From an uncultured bacterium (GTDB lineage Bacteria > Verrucomicrobiota > Kiritimatiellia > RFP12 > UBA1067): a stretch of DNA of 40,013 nt. Location of the stretch: contig CACYQU010000028.1 of the NCBI GenBank assembly GCA_902776615.1, positions 1-40,013 on the forward strand. The letters are read 5' to 3'. Both the position numbers and the translations under genes were made by a program. Positions 1-11,539 of the stretch are shown here, piece by piece. The notes under the pieces are model-generated. The model worked only from the letters and a program-made list of their open reading frames with translations. It was not told the DNA's origin and did not search any database. Each line of letters begins with the position of its first letter. Positions within the stretch are counted from its first letter, which is position 1.

Positions 1-1
1 C

Positions 2-940
2 GGGCCAAGCGCCCAGCAGCACGGCGTGAAGATGTCCGAATACATCAACGCGCACGCCGAGGAGTTCGCGCTCAAGGGCGAGAAGCCGTTCTTCATCCTT
101 TCCCACAAGATGACGTACTTCGCGTGCAACTCGAAGCTCAAGGCGTTCCCGAACGCAATTGCCTTTTGCGGCCACTGGCATTCGAGCATGGCCAACTGGC
201 GCACCAACATCATGTACGACAGGAACTACAAGCTGTTCCCCTACATCAACTGCGGCGCCTGCCGATACGACGGCGGTAACGGGCTCAGTGAGGATTGTAT
301 GAAGGAGAGAACGGAGGGCTGGAGCGACGCAGACTTTCATTTCCAGCACCCGTCGCGCCAGGGGCTGGTGGTGAGCGTCTTCGACGGCGTCGGCGTCGTG
401 ATGGACCGGCGCGAGTTCACCCGGGGTGGTCGGATCGGTCCGCCGTGGATGTTCCCCGTCGGACAGTTCGAGACCAAGCCATATTCGCAAGCGACGCTCA
501 AGACGAAGATCGGCAACCCGGAGTTCCGTCCCGATGCCAAGATCCAGACTTACATGGACAAGGTCGACACGGGCGGCAAGCCCATCTTGCCCAAGCGGGT
601 GAAGGACTTGATCGCCAACATGTACCGCAAGCCGCAGAGAAAGGTTGAGAAGCCGTCCCTGTGGATCGAGATTCCAATGGCGGACGGCAACCCGAAGTCG
701 CGCGTCTACGCGTACGACGTGGTGGTTATGGCCGACGACGATTCCGAGAACCGCTACTTCAAGAGTGTGTTTTTCGCGGGGGTTGGATTCGGCGAAGGCC
801 ACGAGGACAACGACGGCATCACGCTTGTGGACGTGCCGGTCCAGGATCTTCCCAAGGGGAAGAAGCTGACCGTCGCCGTCAGGCCCGTCAGCTCGCTTGG
901 CACCAAAGGCAAAACAATAGGGACGACGATGAGAGTGTAA
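2..940 (+). CDS. Calcineurin-like metallophosphoesterase, 5' truncated by window edge
   Basis: The reading frame is open to the first base of the window, so the N-terminus lies outside; the GTG at 26 is only the first possible start inside and is unlikely to be real. The motif SHKMTYFAC followed by FCGHWHSSMANWR fits the last metal-binding blocks (a conserved His, then GHxH) of calcineurin-like phosphoesterases; the earlier D-x-H and GD blocks would be upstream. About 110 C-terminal residues (SLWIEIPMADG to the end) look like a beta-rich accessory domain. The substrate cannot be told. It is probably secreted, like its neighbours, but no signal peptide is visible here. The last 20 codons (ending GTKGKTIGTTMRV) are repeated almost exactly, out of frame, at the 3' end of the next gene, and the stop codon runs straight into an octamer repeat array. 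Confidence 0.75.
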   Translation, partial: GPSAQQHGVKMSEYINAHAEEFALKGEKPFFILSHKMTYFACNSKLKAFPNAIAFCGHWHSSMANWRTNIMYDRNYKLFPYINCGACRYDGGNGLSEDCMKERTEGWSDADFHFQHPSRQGLVVSVFDGVGVVMDRREFTRGGRIGPPWMFPVGQFETKPYSQATLKTKIGNPEFRPDAKIQTYMDKVDTGGKPILPKRVKDLIANMYRKPQRKVEKPSLWIEIPMADGNPKSRVYAYDVVVMADDDSENRYFKSVFFAGVGFGEGHEDNDGITLVDVPVQDLPKGKKLTVAVRPVSSLGTKGKTIGTTMRV

Positions 941-1120
941 AGTGTGAAGTGTGAAATTTAAGGAGAGAGACTATGAAGAATGTGGAATTGCGGAATTGTG
1001 GAATTATGAAATTATGGAAATATGGAAATGGGCGCGTCTCGCGTCTCGTGTCTCATGCCATAATGACATTGGGCGTTTGCATATTTGCATATTTCCACAC
1101 TTCCACAATTGCATATTGCG
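930..1120 (+). repeat. Octamer repeat cassette A (purine arm, spacer, pyrimidine arm) over the GH89 start
   Basis: From 930 to about 1030 the + strand is a run of degenerate 8-bp units of the type ARTRTGRA (for example AGTGTGAA, ATTGTGGA, AATATGGA). From 1069 to 1120 the reverse complement of the same unit appears (TGCATATT, TCCACACT, TCCACAAT). The two arms form an imperfect inverted repeat around a spacer of about 40 bp. The purine arm carries the ribosome binding site and start codon of the GH89 gene, and the pyrimidine arm encodes the hydrophobic core of its signal peptide (LGVCIFAYFHTSTIAY). Similar cassettes occur at 3028, 5817 and, right arm only, 7707. Confidence 0.8.
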
Positions 1121-3018
1121 GCGAAGCCGCGCCGCCGCCGCCAGTCAGGATGGCGTACAACTACTGCACGCTTGCCTACTCTATGGCGGGTTACGGCGAA
1201 GCGGAGTGGCGCGCGGAGATTGAGCGCCTCGCCGCCAAGGGCTACAACGCCGCGCTCGTGATGGCCGGCATGGCGAAGACGTGGCAGCTGACGCTCGGCG
1301 AACTCGGCGCGAGCGACAAGCAGATAAAGTCGTTCATCCCCGACGAATGGGCGCAGCCGTGGTGGCTCATGGGCAACCTCGAAGGCGAGGGCGGTCCGCT
1401 AACGGACGAGGAAATCGAAAAGGACGCGGAACTCGGGCGCATGATCGTCGGCGAGATGAAGAAGCGCGGCATCCGCCCCGTCCTTCAGGGTTTTACGGGG
1501 ATAATGCCGACGTGGAGTCCGTCGCTCGCTTCGCTCGCCGGCGCGAAGTTTGTGCCGCAGGGGAAGTGGAACGGCTACGAACGCCCGACCGTTCTTGCGC
1601 CGACCGACCCGGCGTTCGGCCACGTCGCTGAAATCTGGTATGCGAATCTCAAGAAAGTCTACGGCGTCGACAATGTTGATTTTCTCGCAGGCGACCTTTT
1701 TCACGAAGGCGGCAAGACGGGCGATCTCGACGTGACGGAATGTATCCGCGCGGTGCAGGCGGCGCAGCAGAGGGCGCTCCCGGGCGTCGTGTGGATGGTG
1801 CAAGGCTGGCAGAGGAACCCCACTCCCAAAGTCTGCGCGGGGCTTGAGCCGAAGTTCACGATAGTCGAACAGCTCGTCGACGACATGGGCAACGGCGCGG
1901 ACCGCAGCGGCGGCTACGGCGAACTGCCGTGGATATGGTGCGAGGTGCAGAACTTCGGCGGCAACATGGGCCTTTTCGGCGGTCTGCCCACATACGCGGC
2001 GCTGGGCCGCGCGGCTAAAGGCAAGGGCGCGGCGACATTTCGCGGCTATGGGTCGCTCTCCGAGGCGTATGGAGCGAACCCCGTCGGGATAGATCTCTTC
2101 GAGGACATGATGATGCGCAGCGCCGGCGCCGAGATGACTGAGCAAGAACTTGACGCCTGGCTTGGTGCCTGGATTGCCAAGCGGTACGGCTTTTCCAGCC
2201 CCAACTCCCAACTCTCAACTCTAAACTCTAAACTTCACGAGGCGTGGCGGCTTCTTTGGCACAGCGTCTACAGCTGCCGCCGCAGGCAGCGCGCGACGAA
2301 GAACGCCATGACGCTTGTGCCGGGCTGGGACGAAAAACTGGCGGACAAGGCGATCGACCCTACCGAGCGCGAGAAGAGCGGTCGCTACTGGAACCCGGAG
2401 GACGTCCGCCGCGCGGCAGAGATATTCACAGAAGCCGGCGAGAAAATCGCCGCGACAAAGCCGTCCGCTGTTGGCGACGTCGCGCTTTCGGCGTTCGCTT
2501 ACGACTGGGCTAATGTCGTCCGCCAGGCGATCGCCGACAGAAGCGCCGGGCTTCTCGCCGGGATGAAGGGCGATGCCGCGCGCCAGAAGGCGTATCTCGA
2601 CTGCTTCGAGGCGATGGACGACGTGACGGCGTGCGTCCCGGAGTTCCGGCTCGACTTCTGGGAGGAGCAGGCGCGCGCGAAGGCGGGCGAGCGCGGCCCG
2701 AGGGCCTTCCGCCGCATGATAACGACATGGAACAATCCGCACGAGCGCCAGCGCAATCTCAACGACTACGCGCGCCGCGAATATGCGGGGCTTCTTCGCG
2801 GCTACTACCGGAAACGCTGGGAGGCGCTTTTCAAGTTCACCGGCGCGGACGGGAAGTTGGACGAGAAAGGCTTCAAGGCGGCGCTCAACGCGCTTGAGAA
2901 AGACTTCTGGGCGAATGGCGTCGAGACGCAGCCCATGCCTCACGACAATCTCGCCGCGCTCGCCGAGCGCGCGAAGTCCGCCCCGTCAGCTCGCCCGGCA
3001 CAAAGGGCAAAACAATAG
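973..3018 (+). CDS. Secreted GH89 (alpha-N-acetylglucosaminidase-family) protein
   Basis: The 681-residue protein has a signal peptide (core LGVCIFAYFHTSTIAY near residue 45) and then the GH89 layout: PWWLMGNLEGEGGPL (about 130), VLQGFTGIMP, GDLFHEGG with a candidate catalytic Glu245, QNFGGNMGLFGGL, and AWRLLWHSVYSC. GH89 enzymes release terminal alpha-GlcNAc from heparan sulfate or mucin glycans. Where the family typically has P-E-G-I with the second catalytic Glu, this protein has P-V-G-I (Val371), so activity is doubtful. Five 7-bp repeats (2201-2235) add about 12 residues between RYGFSSP and AWRLL. The last codons read through a displaced copy of the upstream gene's tail, so the original C-terminus may be lost. 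AAGGAG at 959-964, 8 nt from ATG 973, supports the start. Confidence 0.85.
   Translation: MKNVELRNCGIMKLWKYGNGRVSRLVSHAIMTLGVCIFAYFHTSTIAYCGEAAPPPPVRMAYNYCTLAYSMAGYGEAEWRAEIERLAAKGYNAALVMAGMAKTWQLTLGELGASDKQIKSFIPDEWAQPWWLMGNLEGEGGPLTDEEIEKDAELGRMIVGEMKKRGIRPVLQGFTGIMPTWSPSLASLAGAKFVPQGKWNGYERPTVLAPTDPAFGHVAEIWYANLKKVYGVDNVDFLAGDLFHEGGKTGDLDVTECIRAVQAAQQRALPGVVWMVQGWQRNPTPKVCAGLEPKFTIVEQLVDDMGNGADRSGGYGELPWIWCEVQNFGGNMGLFGGLPTYAALGRAAKGKGAATFRGYGSLSEAYGANPVGIDLFEDMMMRSAGAEMTEQELDAWLGAWIAKRYGFSSPNSQLSTLNSKLHEAWRLLWHSVYSCRRRQRATKNAMTLVPGWDEKLADKAIDPTEREKSGRYWNPEDVRRAAEIFTEAGEKIAATKPSAVGDVALSAFAYDWANVVRQAIADRSAGLLAGMKGDAARQKAYLDCFEAMDDVTACVPEFRLDFWEEQARAKAGERGPRAFRRMITTWNNPHERQRNLNDYARREYAGLLRGYYRKRWEALFKFTGADGKLDEKGFKAALNALEKDFWANGVETQPMPHDNLAALAERAKSAPSARPAQRAKQ
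2201..2235 (+). repeat. Five tandem 7-bp repeats inside the GH89 gene
   Basis: Five consecutive 7-bp units (CCAACTC twice, TCAACTC, TAAACTC, TAAACTT) encode the low-complexity stretch NSQLSTLNSKL in a loop of the GH89 domain. A related run (CCAACTCCAACTC) occurs in the spacer of cassette C near 5880, so the unit is not unique to this gene. Confidence 0.8.
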
Positions 3019-3038
3019 GAACAACTTTTAGAGTGTAA
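2976..3038 (+). repeat. Displaced copy of the upstream phosphoesterase gene tail
   Basis: Bases 2982-3039 match 884-941 without gaps, with about 9 differences in 58. Read in the third frame, 2976-3038 encodes a 20-residue tail containing GTKGKTIGTTFRV and a stop, nearly identical to the last 20 residues of the first gene. The GH89 frame is different and ends inside this copy (TAG 3016-3018). Octamer repeats follow both copies directly. This looks like a remnant left by recombination. Confidence 0.8.
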
Positions 3039-3162
3039 AAGGAATGTGAAAATGTGGAATCGTGAAAATATGAAAGTATGTAAATATGGAAATGCAAAGG
3101 CGCTGACAGCATTGGTTGTTTGCATACTTGCATATTTTCACACTTCAACATTTGCGTATTCT
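3028..3162 (+). repeat. Octamer repeat cassette B over the SGNH-FAD gene start
   Basis: The purine arm (3028-3100) consists of units such as AATATGAA, AGTATGTA and AATATGGA. The pyrimidine arm (3112-3162) encodes LVVCILAYFHTSTFAYS. The start codon lies in the purine arm. The layout matches cassette A, but the spacer is shorter, about 12 bp. Confidence 0.8.
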
Positions 3163-4881
3163 TTCTCGGTCTGCGCCGTCGGCGACTCGATCACGGAGGG
3201 CGGCTCGGCTTTTGTCGCGCATCGCGTGGCGCTTGAGAGCCGGTTTGCCGAGCTCGGCTGGGACATGGAGTGGAAGGGGTCGCACAAAAAGACGGAATCG
3301 GGCTCGTCCAACCTCTGCGAGGGGTGGAGCGGTCAGAATGCGGTGACGATTGCAGACAAGTACGAAGCCAACGCGGCGGGTGACAGGGCGGACCTGCTTC
3401 TCCTGCATGCCGGGCACAATTACAACGGCGGCGATCCCAGCCTTACGCCGACACCCATAAGCGTTGAAGCCATCGTCACAGCCGTCACGAATGCGCACAG
3501 GCGAATCATCGCGGCGGCGCGGGCGCAGAATCCCGATGTCATCGTACTCTATGCGAAGGTCATAACAAGTGGCGGCAACAGGGCGGTGAAGTATTCATAC
3601 ATACCCGCGCTCAACGAGGCCATTGCCGCGAACGCCGCCGCGTTCGATACGCCTGAATCTCCCGTCATCTGCGTCGATATGGCGGAAGGATGGAACTACG
3701 CGACCGACTGCGTATCGGACTGTGTCCACCCGAACGCCTCCGGCGCGGCGAAGATGGCCGCGAAGTGGATGGCGGCGTTCACCGCACTTGCCGCCGCAGG
3801 GAAACTGAGAGGTTTTCGTCGCACGATTAACGCTGCTAAGGTGGATGTCTATCCGCAGAGCTTCGAGGCGGGCGGATGGGGGCTGGATGCGCAGTTCATG
3901 GACGTCATGGGCTCGCCCTACCTGATCGCCCACGGCCTCGGCGTGCGCGTCCTCGACGCGAAGGCGCGCGTCTCGTTCCCGGAGGCGGGAGAATACCGCG
4001 TCTGGGTGCGGACGAAGAACTGGGCGGATGGAGCGCCGGGCCGCTTTCGTGTCATCGTGGACGGCAAGCCGCTCGCCAGGGAATTCGGCGCGGGACCGCG
4101 TGAATGGGCGTGGGAGGACGGCGGCACGGTTACTGTAGAGAAGGGCGAGGCGACTGTTGCGCTCAATGACCTCACCGGCTTCGACGGACGCTGCGCGGGA
4201 ATCGTGTTCGCAAGCGGCGGCGAAAAGCCCGTTGGCCCTCTCAAGGTTGACGAGGCGAATGTCGCAGAGACGGTGAATGCCGATTTCGTCGTCGTTGGCG
4301 GTGGAATGCCCGGGACGTGCGCGGCGGTCGCGGCGGCGCGGCGCGGGCTAAAGGTCGCGCTCGTGCAGGACCGGCCCGTGCTGGGCGGCAACGCGTCCGG
4401 CGAGATCCGCGTCTACTGCGCGGGCGAGGCTAAGCATCCGCTCGTCAGGGAGCTGCGCAACTACTTCATGAACCGTGACGTGAACATGCCCTGGTGCGAC
4501 GAACGACGCATGCGCATCGTGGAGGACGAAGAGAACATAGAACTGCGTCTTTTGACGAGGGCGTTCGGCGTCGAGAAAAACGCAGACGGCACGATTGCCG
4601 CTGTGAAGGCGCTAGATTTGAAGTCCAACCGCGTCGTCCGCTTTGAAGCCCCGCTTTTCTGCGATGCAACGGGCGACGGCTGGGTCGGTTTTTGGGCCGG
4701 GGCCGACTGGCGCATGGGCCGCGAGGCGAAGGACGAGTTTGACGAGAGCCGCGCGCCGGAGACGGCCGACGGCGACACGCTCGGTGCCTCCATCATGTGG
4801 ACGAGCGCGGACGCGAACATGGCCGTCCCGTTCTCCGCTACGGCGAGTGGCGCTGGGAATACGGCATCCACCGCGACATGA
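3052..4881 (+). CDS. SGNH hydrolase fused to FAD-dependent oxidoreductase, N-terminal part (frameshifted)
   Basis: After the repeat-encoded signal peptide comes an SGNH/GDSL hydrolase domain: GDSITEGG, then LLLLHAGHNYNGG, then DCVH. From the alternative GTG start at 3046, the nucleophile is Ser48 and the Asp/His pair is 225/228. Residues about 255-395 resemble the beta domain that precedes FAD_oxidored proteins (GGWGLDAQF, GEYRVWVRTKNWADG). From about 412 an FAD-binding Rossmann motif begins (VVVGGGMPGTCAAVAAAR, then LGGNASGEIR). The frame breaks near 4830, after the FAD_oxidored-like stretch MWTSADANMAVPF, and ends at 4881; the rest continues in another frame. The hydrolase could deacylate or desulfate-prime glycans, but the substrate is unknown. 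ATG 3052 is preferred because AAGGA lies 8 nt upstream. Confidence 0.75.
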   Translation: MWNRENMKVCKYGNAKALTALVVCILAYFHTSTFAYSFSVCAVGDSITEGGSAFVAHRVALESRFAELGWDMEWKGSHKKTESGSSNLCEGWSGQNAVTIADKYEANAAGDRADLLLLHAGHNYNGGDPSLTPTPISVEAIVTAVTNAHRRIIAAARAQNPDVIVLYAKVITSGGNRAVKYSYIPALNEAIAANAAAFDTPESPVICVDMAEGWNYATDCVSDCVHPNASGAAKMAAKWMAAFTALAAAGKLRGFRRTINAAKVDVYPQSFEAGGWGLDAQFMDVMGSPYLIAHGLGVRVLDAKARVSFPEAGEYRVWVRTKNWADGAPGRFRVIVDGKPLAREFGAGPREWAWEDGGTVTVEKGEATVALNDLTGFDGRCAGIVFASGGEKPVGPLKVDEANVAETVNADFVVVGGGMPGTCAAVAAARRGLKVALVQDRPVLGGNASGEIRVYCAGEAKHPLVRELRNYFMNRDVNMPWCDERRMRIVEDEENIELRLLTRAFGVEKNADGTIAAVKALDLKSNRVVRFEAPLFCDATGDGWVGFWAGADWRMGREAKDEFDESRAPETADGDTLGASIMWTSADANMAVPFSATASGAGNTASTAT

Positions 4882-6062
4882 TCGCCGAGGGCGAGGAGAT
4901 ACGCGACAGGATGCTGCTCGCGATCTACGGCGCGTTCTCGCTTGCTAAGAAGAGGCCGGAGAACGCGAACAAGGTTCTGAACTTCTGTCCGTACCTTATC
5001 GGCAAGCGCGAGTCGCGCCGCATCATGGGCGACTGGATCCTTTCGCAGAAGACCGGCACGTGGGGCATCGACCTCCACTACGACGGCCACAAGCCGGGCG
5101 TGGACTTCCTCTCGCGCAACACGTTCGACAACGGAGGCCGCTTCTGGATTCCCTACCGCTCGATATATTCGCGCAACGTCGGCAACCTCTTCGTCGTCGG
5201 ACGATGCTTCAGCTGCACGCACGTGGGGCTGGGTGCGCCGCGTGTCATCAGCACTCTCTCGCAGCTCGGCGTCGCTGCGGGCGAGGCGGCGGCGATGTGC
5301 CGCGAGCTGGGCGAGACGCCGCGCGGAATCTACAAGAACGGCCATGTCCGCAGGCTGCAGGAGATTCTCGGCGGTGGCTTCCCCGGAGTGCCGGACCGGG
5401 AGACGGCAGGCTGGCTCATCGTCGACGACGAATCCGACGGGGTGAAGTTCGGCAAGGGGTGGAGGATGTTCCGCAACACCAACGGCGGCCACTTGGGGCT
5501 GTGCTCGCACTCTGCAAACGCCAAGGGCGCGATTGCGGAGCCGGCGACTTATCCTCTTCCCGTCGCAGAGGCGGGGCGCTACGCTCTCATGGGGAAGGGG
5601 CCATACATGTGGAACGCCAAGCCCGGCTCGGCCACGGCGATGGAAATCGTCTCCGGCGGTAAGGCCGTTGCGTTCAAGGCGGATCAGGCGCAATCGACCG
5701 GCGAGTGGGTGAAGCTCGGCGAGTTCGACCTTGAGCCGGGTGCGACCCTGACCATCATCCCGGCGAAGTCCAGAGGCCACGTCGTCGCCGACGGCTTCGC
5801 GCTAGTTCCCGCAACATGTGAAAATATGAAATTATTGAAATATGAAAGTATAATTGAGTTCGAGAAAGGAAAAATCCACTCTCCAACTCCAACTCGTTAC
5901 TTCAACTTGCTGGCAGCATTGGGCGTTTGCATATTTGCATATTTCCACATTCCCACATTTGCATATTGCGACGCAGTAGCCGGGCCGGCGCGCGATTTTT
6001 GCGGCTGGGGCGCGCTCGCTCCCGTCGCACTGCCCGCCGAATGGCCGTTGAAATCAAACTGA
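4797..6062 (+). CDS. FAD-dependent oxidoreductase, C-terminal part, reading into a second gene head
   Basis: Homology resumes at about 4836 with RYGEWRWEYGIHRDM and continues through NFCPYLIGKRESRRIMGDW, FWIPYRSIYSRNVGNLFVVGRCFS and ISTLSQLGVAAGEAAAMC, the C-terminal part of the FAD_oxidored family. A golvesin-like beta domain follows (about 5450-5815, ending VVADGFALVP). The apparent start at 4797 lies before the break and is not a true start; this is one gene with the part at 3052-4881, joined after an indel or a small deletion. No stop codon follows VVADGFALVP. The frame runs through cassette C and 31 further residues of unrelated sequence to TGA 6062, so this gene has lost its own stop and is fused to another gene's signal peptide. 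Confidence 0.75.
   Translation: MDERGREHGRPVLRYGEWRWEYGIHRDMIAEGEEIRDRMLLAIYGAFSLAKKRPENANKVLNFCPYLIGKRESRRIMGDWILSQKTGTWGIDLHYDGHKPGVDFLSRNTFDNGGRFWIPYRSIYSRNVGNLFVVGRCFSCTHVGLGAPRVISTLSQLGVAAGEAAAMCRELGETPRGIYKNGHVRRLQEILGGGFPGVPDRETAGWLIVDDESDGVKFGKGWRMFRNTNGGHLGLCSHSANAKGAIAEPATYPLPVAEAGRYALMGKGPYMWNAKPGSATAMEIVSGGKAVAFKADQAQSTGEWVKLGEFDLEPGATLTIIPAKSRGHVVADGFALVPATCENMKLLKYESIIEFEKGKIHSPTPTRYFNLLAALGVCIFAYFHIPTFAYCDAVAGPARDFCGWGALAPVALPAEWPLKSN
5817..5970 (+). repeat. Octamer repeat cassette C, fused to the end of the FAD gene
   Basis: The purine arm (5817-5850: AATATGAA, AATATGAA and relatives) follows the last FAD-domain codon. A spacer of about 70 bp contains heptamer-like CCAACTCCAACTC. 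The pyrimidine arm (5919-5970) encodes LGVCIFAYFHIPTFAYC. An ATG at 5826 would give a separate 78-residue product with a signal peptide, but no ribosome binding site is visible. The 31 codons after the signal peptide (to 6062) resemble nothing I recognise and are probably the stump of a deleted secreted protein. Confidence 0.75.
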
Positions 6063-6079
6063 AAGGGGAAGGAGAGATT

Positions 6080-6117
6080 GGTATGTGGAAATGCGAAAAC
6101 GTAAAAGTGAGGACAAC
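6080..6117 (+). repeat. Octamer purine arm without partner
   Basis: Units of about 8 bp (GTATGTGG, AAATGCGA, AAACGTAA, AAGTGAGG) resemble the purine arms of cassettes A-C but are more diverged, and no pyrimidine arm follows. They sit between the stop at 6062 and a Tat-signal gene remnant, under the likely translation start of the latter. Confidence 0.45.
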
Positions 6118-6267
6118 CGTGTGATGGAAATAACAAGGCGGGAGTTTGTGAAGGGCGGTTTGGCGGCGCTCGGCTATCTGGCGTTGGACGGCTTGCCTGT
6201 ATTTGCCGCTCCTCTCGAAGGCGAAACCCCGCCCACCTTCTTCAACGCGAAGATAGAGGAGGAGTGA
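6085..6267 (+). pseudogene. Remnant of a Tat-exported protein: signal peptide joined to a re-used tail
   Basis: From an in-frame GTG 6085 or ATG 6124 the frame gives a twin-arginine signal (TRREFVKGGLAALG, hydrophobic run, VFAA) followed only by PLEGETPPTFFNAKIEEE and a stop. The last 57 bp match 11347-11403, the frame-corrected 3' end of the large caspase-domain gene. The simplest reading is that a full-length gene lost its middle, or that a head and a tail from different genes were joined. A functional 47-61 residue peptide is unlikely. A strong AAGGAGAG (6068-6075) lies upstream, so translation may still start. Confidence 0.55.
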
Positions 6268-6297
6268 CTGCGACTTGGAGTCTGGAATATGAGTTGT

Positions 6298-7434
6298 TCA
6301 GAATATAGATTCCGTCCAGAGGCGGTCGATGAACTCTCTCCAAGGGAGAATCTGAATGCCGTCCACCTCTCTTGCGCGCGGTTCGTTGCAGACGAGAATT
6401 CTGTGCCTGAACGTGCCTTCGTCGCCGATCGCGGCAAGGCTCTTGATGTCGTTCTTTGTCGCGGAGCGGGTGGTCTTGGCTTCGATTGCGACGCAGCCGT
6501 TCACGACGAAATCGACCTCGTAGCCGGTGCGTGTGCGCCAGTAGGCGATTTCGGAATCGCGCCTGATTGCGTCGGTGTAGGCGACGAGTTCATGGAGAAT
6601 CCAGCTTTCGAAAGCGTGGCCGTATTCGGGGGTGCCGGACGAAAGCGGCCCGCGCCTTTGGAGACGGCGGGTGACGCCCGTGTCGAAGAGGTAGAACTTC
6701 GCCGTCTCGACGGTCTTGCGCGAGAGGCCTTTTCGCCAAACCGGCACTTCGCGTGCGAGAAGGGTGTCCTTGAGGATCTTGAAGTACTCCTGAACCGTGG
6801 AGCGTGGAATCTGCGCGTCGGCGGCGATGGCCTGATAGTTGATCTGTTCGCCGCTTGTGAGCGCGGCGATTTCGAGGAACCGGCTGAACGCGGGGAGGTT
6901 TCGCGTCGCGCCTTCCTGCATGATTTCCTGTTCGAGGTAGAGCGTGATGTATCCGGCGAGGTCTTCGTCGGGTTCGTCGGAGAACCATATTCCGGGGAGA
7001 AGTCCGTAGTTGATTGCGCGATCCAGATCGAAGGCGTCGCCAAGTTCGGAAGCGGAAAACGGATGGATGTGCCTCATTCGCGCCCTGCCGCCGAGGAGGT
7101 TCACGCCGCCGTTGCGGAGCTTTCGCGCGCTGGAGCCGGTAAGCAGAAACTTCAGTCCCTTGGTTTCTATGATACGATGGACTTCATCCAGCAGGGACGG
7201 CATCTTCTGGATTTCATCGATTACGACCGGGCGAGGCTCGCGGCAGACTTCTTCAATGTAATTGGGGTTTCTCGCAATGAGGGCGAATGTTTCACCGGAG
7301 AGCAAATCGAACACATATGCGTCCCGAAGCGTCTCTCGAATGAGAGAGGATTTCCCGCACTGCCTAGGTCCGAAAAGGAAGCACGACTTGTTCTTCAGCA
7401 CGGATGCGACGTCGATTTTTCGTCCTATGTACAT
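6298..7434 (-). CDS. AAA ATPase with C-terminal DUF4143 domain
   Basis: The 378-residue protein carries a Walker A motif GPRQCGKSS (residues 22-30), Walker B VVIDEIQK (about 70-77) and sensor LLTGSSARKL, then a winged-helix-like part (QIPRSTVQEYFKIL) and a C-terminal DUF4143 part ending in YEVDFVV and AIEAKTT. The latter resembles the core of a PD-(D/E)xK fold. This family is abundant in anaerobes and archaea and its role is not settled; it is often linked to mobile or variable loci. It is the only minus-strand gene and divides the shuffled secreted-protein genes. AAGGA lies 6 nt upstream of its ATG, and a good promoter is visible. It shows no sign of decay. Confidence 0.9.
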   Translation of the reverse strand: MYIGRKIDVASVLKNKSCFLFGPRQCGKSSLIRETLRDAYVFDLLSGETFALIARNPNYIEEVCREPRPVVIDEIQKMPSLLDEVHRIIETKGLKFLLTGSSARKLRNGGVNLLGGRARMRHIHPFSASELGDAFDLDRAINYGLLPGIWFSDEPDEDLAGYITLYLEQEIMQEGATRNLPAFSRFLEIAALTSGEQINYQAIAADAQIPRSTVQEYFKILKDTLLAREVPVWRKGLSRKTVETAKFYLFDTGVTRRLQRRGPLSSGTPEYGHAFESWILHELVAYTDAIRRDSEIAYWRTRTGYEVDFVVNGCVAIEAKTTRSATKNDIKSLAAIGDEGTFRHRILVCNEPRAREVDGIQILPWREFIDRLWTESIF

Positions 7435-7467
7435 AATAAATCCTTCTTTGTCGATGAATTGAGCGGT

Positions 7468-7497
7468 ATTATATCATTTGAGCCTCTGCCGCGTCAA
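7468..7497 (-). promoter_or_regulatory. Promoter of the AAA ATPase gene
   Basis: On the minus strand, TTGACG (plus 7492-7497), an 18-bp spacer and a perfect TATAAT (plus 7468-7473) stand about 34 bp upstream of the ATPase start codon. The -35 box abuts two tandem palindromes (7500-7560). Confidence 0.7.
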
Positions 7498-7499
7498 AT

Positions 7500-7560
7500 G
7501 CAAATCGCCAACTCTGTCGGCGAATTTGCAGCAAAATCGCCAGCCCGGTCGGCGGTTTGC
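7500..7560. repeat. Two tandem 30-bp palindromes upstream of the ATPase gene
   Basis: Unit 1 (7500-7529) has arms GCAAATCGCC and GGCGAATTTGC. Unit 2 (7531-7560) has arms GCAAAATCGCC and GGCGGTTTGC. Each has a 9-nt loop of similar sequence (AACTCTGTC, AGCCCGGTC). They are direct repeats of one another and each can fold into a hairpin. Their position just upstream of the ATPase -35 box would suit an operator, or they may be a dispersed REP-like element. Confidence 0.7.
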
Positions 7561-7691
7561 AAAGATGTTTTGAAGACTTTCTTTAAACGGCGGACATTAT
7601 ATCAAACCCCTGTAAAATACTCTAGTAGCACCCTGCAAAAAAGTAAGATAGCGGGGTGTAAGAAATTCAGGTATCACACCAAGGAGGCGGC

Positions 7692-10600
7692 ATGATGAAG
7701 AAACTATTGGGTGTTTCCATAATTGCATATTTGCATACTTTCACATTTGCATACTCTGCAAGCGTCAATATGCTCTCGTGCTGTCCGGGCGAGGACACCG
7801 CGACCCAGGCGCGATTCGTCTGGCACTCCGACAGCGACGCATGCCTGCTCTTCTGTGCGAAGGCGTCTGACACGACCGGTGCACACACGATCCTTCCGTA
7901 CAGCAAGACGAAAAAGCCAGTGACGTTCAGGTCGCCTGATGGCACATACTACAAATACACGGCGGAACTTTCCGACCTCGAACCCGGCACGGAATACGTC
8001 TACTGGGTCGAGATCGGCAGCGAAAAGTTCCCGGAGCAGCGTTTCAAGACGGCGGGGACGGGCGGCAGCTTCAACTTCCTCTGGATGAGCGACGTGCATT
8101 CCCATCCCGACAATCCTGGCAAGATGACGACTGTAGAGCTGCTTCGCCAGGATGCCGAGGCGCGGACGGCCTCGTCAGGAGGGATCGACCTCGTTCTCTT
8201 TTCCGGCGACGCGGTGAAGTACGGCTCGCGCTACGACAACTGGCAGCAGTGGAACGGCGCGCCGACGGTGACGAACTACACGTTCGCCATGGTTCCCGGC
8301 AACAAGGAGTACTACTACACCGGTTCGAGCTCATTCTACGACTACTACTGGTATCTGGCCGTCAGGAACAATCCATCCAACGGTCCAAATGCGACGGAGC
8401 AGGAGGGTTGCTACTGGTTCTTGCGCGACAAGGTCCTTTTTGTCGGCATCGACTCGCTGATCCACAAGGGGTCGAGGATGGAAATGTACGACAGGAAGAA
8501 CGAGGTACTTGCGGCGCAGACGAACTGGTTCGACAAAGTCGTCACATCGCAGCGCGGAAAGTTCCGCTACCTCGTCGTCTTCCAGCACGATCCGTGGTTC
8601 GTGTATGCGGCGACGAAGAACTCGTTCGACAAGTCGCGGGGCAACTACGACGTGTGGCGGCATGTCTTCGACAAGCACAAGGTCGATCTGGCGCTCTCCG
8701 GCGACGAGCACAACTACATCCGCACGAAGCCGATGCGCGGGGATGCCGCGAATTCCGACGGTACGGTCTACATGGTCGCGGGGCAGATCGAGGAATCGAA
8801 CTACAGCGCCACCATCACGAAAGACATAAGCAGCTACGGCAATTCGAACGCGACGAAATACTTCGACTGCATGGGTGCGACGGATGCGTCGTGCGGTGCC
8901 TGCTGGGTGGAGGTGCGGCCGGAATCCCTCAAGCTCACGTATTACTGGGACAAGTGGCAAAGCCCGAATTACAAGGTATACGACACCGTTACGATATCTC
9001 CCAAGGAAAGGGGATGGACGTTCGAGGAAATCGGCGCCAAGGCACACAAGCGCTACCGCTTCGCCGTGGATGCGCCGAGGAGCGATTCGGGGAAAATGCA
9101 GTTGTCCGAAATCGAGCTTCTGGATGCGAACGGGGATGTGATTTCGCCAAGTGATTTTACGCTGGCTTGGGATTCGACGACGACGAACTCGGCAGGGCAG
9201 AAATACCCATCGGGCGAAAATCCGGGCCTTGCCGCAGACGGAAAGCTCAATACAAAGTGGCTGGACTACCGCGCGGGGCTTGACAATCCTGCGGAAGTGC
9301 GCGCCGCGGCGTGGCTCGACTTCCGCTTCTCGACGGCTGTGAAGATATCCGGCTACCGCTGGTACACCGCCAACGACGACGTTACGTATCCCAGCCGAAC
9401 GCCGGTCGCGTGGACGCTCACTGCATTTGATGACGGTGACGATACGTGCTACATCCTCGATCGTGTCGTCGGCTACGACTCTCCAAAGGCGAACAAAGTC
9501 CTCGCGTACCCGCTGCCGCCTTCGCCAGACGAGCCCGACGAACCGGCCGGGCCTGGGGAATCGGCCGTCACAACCGCTGGCGGAACCTACTACGCATTGA
9601 GCGTCGGCGTCAACAACTACGAAAACGACAGGCAGGCCAAGCTCGGCGGCTGCGTTGCCGACGCAGAGGACGTGCTGAGCGCCTGCACGAACGCCGTCAA
9701 GGGCCTGTGGACGGCGGGCAACTGCCAGGGGCTATGCGATGCTGACGCGAACAAGTCTGCCGTCAGGAAGCAGTTCAACGCAATTGCCGCGCAGGCGCAG
9801 GGCGGCGATACGGTTCTCTACTACCATTCGAGCCACGGCGGCGACGATTGCATCTGCCTGTACGACGAGGATTACACCGCAGATGAACTTGCAAGCGACC
9901 TAATGGAGTTCAGTGCGGGTGTCCGTGTCGTAGTCGTGCTAGACACATGCCATTCGGGTAGCATGTTCAAGGGTGGCGGCGATGCTTCGTCCGGGTCGGG
10001 TCCGTGGAACTTCGCCGCAAGCGTCGAGGCATACATGGACGAGATGCGCTCCAGCGTGCGGAAACGGGGAGCCAAGGCCGCTGCAAGCGGGCCGTCCGTC
10101 GGGTGGGTCACGGCATGCGACGACGACCAGCTGTCCGTTGAATCAAACAAGCGCGGCTGGTTTACGAGGCCGTTTGTGGAGGCGTGGAAGGCGGATGCCA
10201 CAGATGCGAACGGCGACGGCTGGAACGATTTCAAGGAGGCGTTCAATATTGCCGCTCCCAAGGCAACCAACACCGAACGCGCGCCCCAGACGTTCAATGA
10301 AGACCTTCTCAGGAGCGTCGCCGCCTACGAGGTTGCCTATCATCCCAAGGCGTCAGACAAGTGGCTGGATGAGACGATGGAGATGCGGCTTTCCACAGGG
10401 ACTTGGTCAGAGGATGTAGCATACGGCGAGGACGGAAGGGCGTATCTCGACAGCAACGGCGGCGAAATCGCATTTTCTCCCTACAACGCTTCAACCGGCA
10501 ACGTCGTGACGGTCGAGGCGAAGGCGCAGTTCTGCGAATATTCCAAGGACGATGTGCCTGGCGCAACTGCGCAGGCCGCCATCCGGCTGGGTACAAACGG

Positions 10601-11498
10601 CTGCTTTCAGGTGTGGGCGAAGACAGGGAACAGGGAAGAGGGAACAGGGAACGGGGAAGAGGGAACAGGGAACGGGTGGGTGGATGTGGAAGCAGATGGC
10701 TTCACGCCCGTCAGCGGCGAGGAATACACGCTTCGCTTCACGTTCGACTACTATGCCGGGACGTATGGGGTGGAGGTTAAGACAGGATTAACAGAATTTA
10801 CAAGATTGGTGGAAAGGGAAAATCCTGATAATCCTGCAAATCCTGTCAAAACGACGTTTCCCATTGCGGTATCCACCAACTGCGTCTCTCGCGTTGCGTT
10901 CAAGGGCGATACGTACTTTACTTCGCTTGGCGGCGACTGCAGGATGGTCGTGGTCGGCTTTGCCGAGGACGAGTCGCTGGTGCTGAAGGACAATGCCGAG
11001 GTCATCCTTGACGCGGCGAAGGCGGCGTGGCTCAACAGCTGCGCGGGCGGCAAGGCGGCTGTCGGCAGTGCGGCGGCTGGTCTTTCGGCAAAGGAGTTTT
11101 CCGACGCCTACCTTCTCAATCTCGACATCACCGACGACGACCGCTCATACTCATTTGAGATCACGGGCGTAGATGTCGGGGCGGGAAGCGTGACTGTCGC
11201 CGTAATGCTTACGCGGAGCGGCGAGATTGCGCAGAAGATCAACGGTGTCGTCAAGTTCTACGGCGCGGCGACCTTGGAGGACTTCAAGACGGCGGCATCG
11301 CCGCTCCGACAATTTCAGCAAGGGCGACACCGCGACCGCCACGATTCCGCTCGACGGCGAAACCCCGCCCGCCTTCTTCAAGGCGAATATAGAGGAGAAA
11401 TGAGGATGGAAGTGGATCAAGCCTCATGCGGAGAGGGACCCCGCCAGGCCCTTGAAAAACGGGCTTTCGCGGCACCCTGGAATATCCCCAGTTTTTGA
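7692..11498 (+). CDS. Large secreted protein: phosphoesterase, discoidin-like, caspase (C14) and LamG-like domains; 3' frameshift
   Basis: The order is: signal peptide (repeat D, FAYSAS); a purple-acid-phosphatase-like Fn3 domain (about 25-125); a calcineurin-like phosphoesterase (126-430: WMSDVHSH, LFSGDAVKYG, VPGNKEYY, FQHDPW, SGDEHNYIRT); a discoidin-like domain (about 460-620); a caspase-like C14 domain (635-870) with YYHSSHGG (His715) and VVVLDTCHSGS (Cys753); and a LamG-like domain (930-1130). Two usual metal ligands are changed: GNHE is GNKE (Lys205) and GHxH is GDEH (Asp338). Two repeat insertions lie in the LamG part. At about 11307 one base too many shifts the frame; without it the protein ends PLDGETPPAFFKANIEEK with TGA at 11403, and the 32 codons beyond 11307 to 11498 in the current frame look spurious over much of their length. 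AAGGAGG (7680-7687) supports the start. No function is assigned. Confidence 0.8.
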   Translation: MMKKLLGVSIIAYLHTFTFAYSASVNMLSCCPGEDTATQARFVWHSDSDACLLFCAKASDTTGAHTILPYSKTKKPVTFRSPDGTYYKYTAELSDLEPGTEYVYWVEIGSEKFPEQRFKTAGTGGSFNFLWMSDVHSHPDNPGKMTTVELLRQDAEARTASSGGIDLVLFSGDAVKYGSRYDNWQQWNGAPTVTNYTFAMVPGNKEYYYTGSSSFYDYYWYLAVRNNPSNGPNATEQEGCYWFLRDKVLFVGIDSLIHKGSRMEMYDRKNEVLAAQTNWFDKVVTSQRGKFRYLVVFQHDPWFVYAATKNSFDKSRGNYDVWRHVFDKHKVDLALSGDEHNYIRTKPMRGDAANSDGTVYMVAGQIEESNYSATITKDISSYGNSNATKYFDCMGATDASCGACWVEVRPESLKLTYYWDKWQSPNYKVYDTVTISPKERGWTFEEIGAKAHKRYRFAVDAPRSDSGKMQLSEIELLDANGDVISPSDFTLAWDSTTTNSAGQKYPSGENPGLAADGKLNTKWLDYRAGLDNPAEVRAAAWLDFRFSTAVKISGYRWYTANDDVTYPSRTPVAWTLTAFDDGDDTCYILDRVVGYDSPKANKVLAYPLPPSPDEPDEPAGPGESAVTTAGGTYYALSVGVNNYENDRQAKLGGCVADAEDVLSACTNAVKGLWTAGNCQGLCDADANKSAVRKQFNAIAAQAQGGDTVLYYHSSHGGDDCICLYDEDYTADELASDLMEFSAGVRVVVVLDTCHSGSMFKGGGDASSGSGPWNFAASVEAYMDEMRSSVRKRGAKAAASGPSVGWVTACDDDQLSVESNKRGWFTRPFVEAWKADATDANGDGWNDFKEAFNIAAPKATNTERAPQTFNEDLLRSVAAYEVAYHPKASDKWLDETMEMRLSTGTWSEDVAYGEDGRAYLDSNGGEIAFSPYNASTGNVVTVEAKAQFCEYSKDDVPGATAQAAIRLGTNGCFQVWAKTGNREEGTGNGEEGTGNGWVDVEADGFTPVSGEEYTLRFTFDYYAGTYGVEVKTGLTEFTRLVERENPDNPANPVKTTFPIAVSTNCVSRVAFKGDTYFTSLGGDCRMVVVGFAEDESLVLKDNAEVILDAAKAAWLNSCAGGKAAVGSAAAGLSAKEFSDAYLLNLDITDDDRSYSFEITGVDVGAGSVTVAVMLTRSGEIAQKINGVVKFYGAATLEDFKTAASPLRQFQQGRHRDRHDSARRRNPARLLQGEYRGEMRMEVDQASCGEGPRQALEKRAFAAPWNIPSF
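7707..7758 (+). repeat. Octamer pyrimidine arm D in the caspase-gene signal peptide
   Basis: The stretch encodes LGVSIIAYLHTFTFAYS and consists of units like TGCATATT, TGCATACT, TTCACATT and TGCATACT. It is clearly related to the right arms of cassettes A-C, but no purine arm precedes it. Here the start codon lies only 15 bp upstream, behind a conventional ribosome binding site. Confidence 0.7.
10623..10676 (+). repeat. Perfect 21-bp tandem repeat in the caspase gene
   Basis: A 21-bp unit (10635-10655) is repeated exactly at 10656-10676 and preceded by a partial copy. It encodes EEGTGNG twice, a low-complexity insertion between FQVWAKTG and WVDVEADGF in the LamG-like domain. The unit is itself built of GGGAACA/GGGAAGA 7-mers. 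Confidence 0.85.
10781..10847. repeat. Imperfect inverted repeat of 9-bp units in the caspase gene
   Basis: The left arm (10781-10807) is three 9-bp units, GACAGGATT and relatives. The right arm (10821-10847) is the reverse-complement type, AATCCTGAT, AATCCTGCA, AATCCTGTC, with a 13-nt loop. It is read through in frame as TGLTEF to NPDNPANPVK. It is a different family from the octamers but has the same architecture. Confidence 0.85.
11347..11403 (+). repeat. Re-used gene tail (second copy of 6211-6267)
   Basis: Encodes PLDGETPPAFFKANIEEK and TGA 11401-11403 in the frame shifted by one base from the upstream caspase protein. It matches the tail of the Tat remnant at 6211-6267 in about 49 of 57 bases. 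It marks the probable true end of the large secreted gene. Confidence 0.75.
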
Positions 11499-11539
11499 TC
11501 CCTGAAATGAGTCGGATGCCTGGTTTTATTGGGCGGTAC

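Follow-up and report, generated by a model that had tools for sequence, protein, structure and literature searches.

Deletion scars as a probable source of head/tail reading frames in secreted-enzyme genes of an uncultured Kiritimatiellia bacterium

Results

Organization of the locus

The window analyzed here is a stretch of 40,013 bp and represents the entire contig C28 of G000, a MAG of 2.35 Mb (127 contigs, 87.75% complete). The following features were assigned by Pfam, profile searches and comparison with related genomes (PE, metallophosphoesterase; CTD, C-terminal domain):

26..940, plus strand: C-terminal two thirds of a PE gene, truncated by the contig start (60% identity to PE residues 188–476)
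2976..3039, plus strand: PE tail in the wrong frame, located where the NAGLU gene ends (83% identity to 878–941 across 64 bp)
3046..5816, plus strand: GDSL and FAD-dependent oxidoreductase gene, broken by a frameshifting gap of 40 nt near 4841 and an in-frame gap of 39 nt (Pfam; alignment with G013:C251)
5826..6062, plus strand: second head/tail minigene, in which a signal-peptide head continues in frame into a glycosidase tail (RDFCGWGALAPVALP at 5982–6042; tail homology)
6124..6212, plus strand: Tat signal head of a PE gene, the sole remnant of that gene (homology to PE starts)
6210..6267, plus strand: last 18 codons and stop codon of a CTD gene, continuing the PE head in frame (repeat match; the CTD profile finds the partner copy)
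6298..7434, minus strand: convergent AAA_14/DUF4143 ATPase gene, ending 30 bp past the CTD tail (Pfam)
7692..11306, plus strand: gene for a secreted protein with metallophosphoesterase and clan-CD (caspase-like) peptidase domains, up to the deletion point (Pfam Metallophos, Pur_ac_phosph_N, Peptidase_C13)
11001..11403, plus strand: CTD of the caspase-type gene, its final strand (11346–11403) out of frame (profile, alignment; 20-nt gap)

Six scars lie between 2.9 and 11.4 kb: the NAGLU/PE tail, the gap in the FAD gene, the FAD gene running into the next head, the head/glycosidase tail, the PE head/CTD tail and the gap in the caspase-type gene. The PE tail behind NAGLU, listed as a 'phosphoesterase tail' in the original prediction, corresponds to 878–941, the end of the PE gene at 26–940. 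The FAD gene is 86.6% identical over 4527–5816 to an unbroken copy in a relative (G013:C251). Behind that copy lies an open secreted-hydrolase-like gene that starts with the same type of head; at this place the window has the head alone. The tail of the minigene at 5826–6062 matches the end of long proteins in G113, G090, G126 and G122, which belong to another family of the order; Pfam, run on the G113 protein only, assigned it to the MGH1-like/trehalase type.

AT-rich stretches composed of 8-bp units with inverted arms form the signal-peptide-coding starts of several genes (window 972–1141, 3030–3184, 5808–5991 and 7705–7779; L108 8311–8366). Such stretches are also located in frame inside a PE gene of G000:C63.

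The 61-codon reading frame joins the ends of two gene families

The open reading frame (ORF) in front of the DUF4143 gene has 61 codons and is translated as VEMRKRKSEDNRVMEITRREFVKGGLAALGYLALDGLPVFAAPLEGETPPTFFNAKIEEE. Since homology to other Tat heads starts at the ATG at 6124, the likelier extent of this ORF is 6124–6267 (47 codons). Over 28 aa, the Tat head is 82% identical to the N-terminus of a 523-aa ORF from G002, and over 30 aa it shares 77% identity with a PE of G013. Tat-head matches above E 0.01, including the one in G110:C41, were left out. The ORF contains the Tat head of the PE family, lacks the PE catalytic domain and has no Pfam match. Of the CTD, just the final 18 codons are present in the ORF, which therefore bears a fragment of the domain and does not belong to that family.

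The repeat connecting the short ORF with the caspase-type gene comprises 58 bp (6210–6267 and 11346–11403; 88% identity, E 2.4e-14); the 57 in-frame matching bases given in the original prediction were correct. The genome-wide search for the tail that had been proposed there was carried out, and the repeat was present in two copies only in the whole assembly. Likewise, a degenerate tail pattern with one mismatch allowed produced two matches in the assembly and none in the reversed control. Downstream of the two CTD stop codons, the DNA of the copies is unrelated. The triplet TCC at 6210–6212 is compatible with both parents, resulting in a microhomology of 3 nt at the PE/CTD join.

Tat-exported PEs of about 475 aa are common in the genus and have their own C-terminus around VRPVSSLGTKGKTIG. 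Because this C-terminus differs from the CTD tail, the short ORF, judged by its sequence, is a true hybrid with a head and a tail from two different families. The convergent DUF4143 gene has an ortholog with 79% amino acid identity upstream of the caspase-type gene in G060.

The caspase-type gene is a frameshifted carrier of a conserved C-terminal domain

Relatives of the caspase-type gene are 77% (G060) and 66% (G045) identical. Alignment with the G060 and G002 genes, both of which are in frame, revealed a net deletion of 20 nt between 11306 and 11307. This deletion accounts for the one-base shift of the second tail copy relative to the frame of ORF 7692–11498, an earlier observation that our analysis confirmed. 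The CTD profile matched G000:C28 at 10998–11297 (E 4.5e-39) and, in another frame, at 11275–11394 (E 1.2e-4), while the G060 version of the protein ends in frame with TATATIPLDGETPPAFFNAKIEEQ. The caspase-type gene is an ordinary CTD carrier with a frameshift, and no tail has been re-used there. Behind the caspase-type gene, at 11430–11480, lies a ~50-bp repeat (GGACCCCGCC...CTTGAAAAACGGGCTTTCGCGGCACCC) with copies in no fewer than four further stretches of the genome (L072 18035–18087, L094 447, L095 110, L097 293).

When the 100 residues preceding the tail of the caspase-type gene were used as query, 41 of the 145 related genomes searched proved to contain the CTD, which usually closes a long ORF; in a phylum-wide sample it was present in 10 of 194 genomes. 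Among 33 rows with a significant profile match, 32 placed the domain within 4 residues of the C-terminus. The single exception (L007) carries an internal deletion of its own; a further row (L014) is cut by the contig end. Alignment A1 of 37 CTDs displayed the terminal motif FFKAxIE. Carriers of the domain are metallophosphoesterase/peptidase proteins, C10 peptidases and very long proteins without Pfam matches (A1; L035 to L041, L150 to L169). The AlphaFold2 model (pLDDT 90.3, pTM 0.82) consists of helices followed by a beta-sandwich, in which the tail is the last strand. An undescribed, widespread C-terminal domain of large secreted Kiritimatiellae proteins normally has this tail as its terminal beta-strand. 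The original prediction had considered that the tail could be the normal conserved C-terminal domain of one family holding both genes. A conserved domain end was indeed found, but the two genes come from different families.

Comparison of the 37 members with NCBIfam and Pfam gave no convincing family assignment, weak matches being obtained with one to three members. The CTD profile had no match among PDB sequences, and a Foldseek search with the model returned nothing at E ≤ 0.001. In a fold search with residues 51–142 the best match had a VIA Z of 7.1 over 81 residues (rmsd 3.4); matches of this kind to the common immunoglobulin-like beta-sandwich prove nothing. Type IX secretion C-terminal sorting domains are beta-rich C-terminal domains common to otherwise unrelated large secreted proteins. 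The CTD resembles them in its C-terminal position, its predicted beta-rich structure and its occurrence on very different large secreted proteins. In contrast to them, it is known here from sequence and predicted structure and is convincingly matched by no Pfam or NCBIfam model, including the curated models of named C-terminal sorting domains. The CTD may be a sorting or anchoring domain, and this candidate function makes it relevant in a group for which we found little published on protein export.

Similar joins occur in related genomes

Starts and tails of PE genes are joined in the same manner in at least five other assemblies of the genus. For this census, 145 genomes were searched with a head-plus-tail query and the DNA was then read; a hand count gave 59 tail rows among about 80. 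The tail row of G079:C271 turned out to be spurious on translation and was dropped. G028:C140 was left out of the classification due to a run of N, G069:C211 is a weak match, and G013:C193:2393 and G002:C72:4122 were taken from the table as frameshifted ends of nearly whole PE genes. Orphan tails in G018:C108, G009:C26, G009:C93 and G272:C42 were rejected as contig ends, and a short frame in L030 was rejected as a hybrid and assigned to an ordinary frameshift. Ten PE tails were detached from the PE body; additionally, G013:C165 lacks about 210 residues of the body. The joins are:

G045:C56: 24 head and 23 tail residues, in frame
G013:C300 and C356: 13 head and 28–30 tail residues, in frame; one shared join
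G028:C73: 14 head and 41 tail residues, out of frame
G060:C85: two PE joins
G054:C30: in frame with a one-base slip after the join; PE tail on a protease-like ORF
G013:C109, G013:C193 and G013:C165: further PE joins
G000:C76: 94 head and 10 tail residues, in frame

G000:C76 and G028:C73 represent one locus (96.5% identity over 1229 bp on the left, 99.1% over 1177 bp on the right), in which the same PE gene has undergone two different deletions, one of them out of frame. Of all cases, this locus points most clearly to recent and repeated loss. Microhomologies of 3 to 7 nt were read by eye at the other compared joins. Six of ten PE-tail joins in the census were in frame (p=0.08), if C300 and C356 are counted as one event and G013:C165 is included; the in-frame excess is weak. 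Most of the PE heads found were very short (13–34 of 475 aa); this observation is biased, since the query itself was a short head/tail protein.

Between the PE tail and the next gene, G045, G013:C109 and G054:C30 contain a palindrome and a TATAAT-like stretch. The scar in G045 ends just before this promoter-like stretch, which G060 keeps without a scar. Moreover, G008:C151 carries a signal peptide on an apparent glycosidase end, which we take to be of the GH3 type. The MAGs of the named relatives bear the labels uncultured bacterium (RUG isolates), Verrucomicrobia (Tb.RUG.75) or Kiritimatiellae (RGIG2266, goat duodenum); RUG stands for rumen. Similar joins beside the short ORF in the window, and others in several related genomes, support the earlier view that the pattern is not a single accident.

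Gene ends in genome-wide surveys

Gene starts, middles and tails were compared at the DNA level within 805 kb of G000 (41 stretches including the window, 562 ORFs). Single non-paralog matches were obtained for 19 heads, 10 and 9 middles and 15 tails. The corresponding numbers (head/middle/middle/tail) in the control genomes were 13/14/13/10 for 213 ORFs of G105 and 6/0/0/2 for 215 ORFs of G016. Part of the excess in G000 was caused by tandem repeats extending into gene ends, and for this reason the claim of genome-wide tail re-use was dropped. A smaller scan (428 kb, 267 ORFs) with intergenic matches to 8 tails, 1 head and 1 middle had looked stronger than the larger one. An unbiased blastx survey of intergenic DNA against 904 ORFs yielded 4 N-terminal, 4 C-terminal and 10 middle matches in G000, compared to 5, 2 and 6 in G016 and 3 N-terminal and 2 middle matches in G105. 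No general excess of gene ends in intergenic DNA was apparent in these three genomes. All surveys relied on a simple longest-ORF gene caller, which added noise.

The ribosomal protein S7 gene (rpsG) has its last ~40 codons repeated as an orphan at L087 2364–2483 (G000:C51; compared with L082 18629–19144). This copy stands alone elsewhere in the genome, with 90% DNA identity and an identical protein sequence, and is possibly a displaced integration site or a relic of a second strain. A dispersed repeat of ~20 bp forms tandem arrays in many G000 contigs (L083 201–584, L098 4246–4441, L070 3988–4138 and others).

Discussion

Origin of the head/tail joins

The reading we prefer is ordinary microhomology deletion during the decay of secreted-enzyme clusters, rather than a system for tail re-use. 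A PE gene and a CTD-bearing gene would once have been located between the FAD oxidoreductase and the DUF4143 genes and would have disappeared in a single deletion or in several successive ones. This event is inferred, and it counts against it that an intact PE-then-CTD pair at the exact position was found in no genome searched; the unbroken FAD gene and its following gene were found in G013. The deletion would have brought PE codon ~29 together with the 18 terminal codons of the CTD gene, the two meeting at the 3-nt microhomology still visible in the join. The separate 20-nt deletion seen in the alignment moved the tail of the caspase-type gene out of frame. Recurrence would reflect repeated microhomology deletions with very short overlaps in multi-copy secreted-enzyme genes. 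Gene ends would survive because longer deletions would cut neighbours or their promoters, and remnants touching the promoter or coding end of a neighbour may persist longest for such a reason. Dedicated machinery for tail re-use would be unnecessary. We regard it as probable that the end of a C-terminal domain, a deletion-scar ORF, a separate 20-nt deletion and repeated microhomology deletions together account for the pattern. Points against it are the very short PE heads, which random breakpoints would disfavour, and the intergenic survey, which lent no support to the survival of ends as a general rule. We claim no special mechanism, since six in-frame joins out of ten give p=0.08 and the intergenic survey was without a general excess of ends.

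An artefact of assembly or sequencing, in which PE head and CTD tail would be adjacent in no cell and the frameshifts would be errors, is unlikely. The window stems from a single fragmented and incomplete MAG, and several apparent orphan tails in relatives proved to be contig ends. However, the 3 nt shared at the join are far below any assembler k-mer overlap, the gaps of 20, 39 and 40 nt do not resemble homopolymer slips, and like joins exist in other assemblies, the named relatives originating from more than one project. Selection of the minigenes, either as short exported proteins or as non-polar scars kept in frame for translation into the next gene, would agree with the in-frame joins at 5826–6062 and 6124–6267 and with the in-frame majority of the census. 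This is improbable, given the p value of that majority, the different deletions at the G000:C76/G028:C73 locus, of which one is out of frame, and the failure to find any minigene that is conserved across species.

One and the same PE tail occurs on several bodies (NAGLU in the window, the protease-like ORF in G054, other signal peptides). Together with the orphan rpsG tail, this could point to recombination or attachment cassettes, with gene 3′ ends being duplicated or exchanged as whole units in the way integrative elements act at such ends. We consider such cassettes very unlikely. The idea, implied by the original prediction, that tails are re-used as units found no support, as the DNA past both CTD stops is unrelated, the compared joins share a few nucleotides of microhomology and the surveys gave no general end bias. 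Furthermore, Pfam recognized no recombinase among the large ORFs scanned in window 1–11500. A broader proposal would be a genus with recurrent end-sparing gene loss, in which secreted-enzyme genes are cut to a signal-peptide start and a short tail, often in frame, and some minigenes are perhaps kept as short exported proteins; this seems unlikely. On this reading, the scars would resemble the scar of a laboratory non-polar knockout.

If the joins are simple deletions, as we favour, this rumen lineage is suited to observing the loss of secreted-enzyme genes, as alleles can be compared across flanks that are 96.5–99% identical and breakpoints can be read directly. For annotation, short Tat ORFs and shared tails in these genomes should be regarded as probable debris.

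Comparison with known systems

Among titles and abstract beginnings from a literature search (pseudogene, C-terminal domain, sorting), no published account of gene scars in Kiritimatiellae or of the CTD was recognised. In Rickettsia, orphan genes made of fused gene fragments occur. Short ORFs in these bacteria are remnants of longer genes, as in the window, and gene remnants carry independent small deletions (PMC2374718, available part). Rickettsia differs in its host-restricted genomes, and the available part of that account describes no recurrent start-to-end joins of one family (PMC2374718). For Haloquadratum walsbyi, the available part of another account reports strain-specific deletions tied to direct repeats of 4–20 bp, many pseudogenes and internal deletions leaving terminal gene remnants (PMC3119063). 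Deletions at short overlaps and terminal remnants of genes are thus common to both organisms. In contrast, the overlaps found here are very short (3 nt at the join in the window, 3 to 7 nt elsewhere) and heads and tails of different genes are fused. Moreover, many of the Haloquadratum remnants derive from transposons and whole strains were compared, as far as described in that part (PMC3119063), whereas secreted enzyme genes of a rumen bacterium are concerned here.

A palindromic repeat of ~54 bp (AGTTGGAGTTC...GAACTCCAACT type) is located at window 5856–5907 and in L240, L242 and L243, and has matches in more than 10 genomes of the same genus. It can sit in frame within genes and is reminiscent of the Rickettsia palindromic elements. 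The host gene in L242 is presumably a glutamate synthase gene, and in L240 the repeat occurs twice in a 2-kb stretch.
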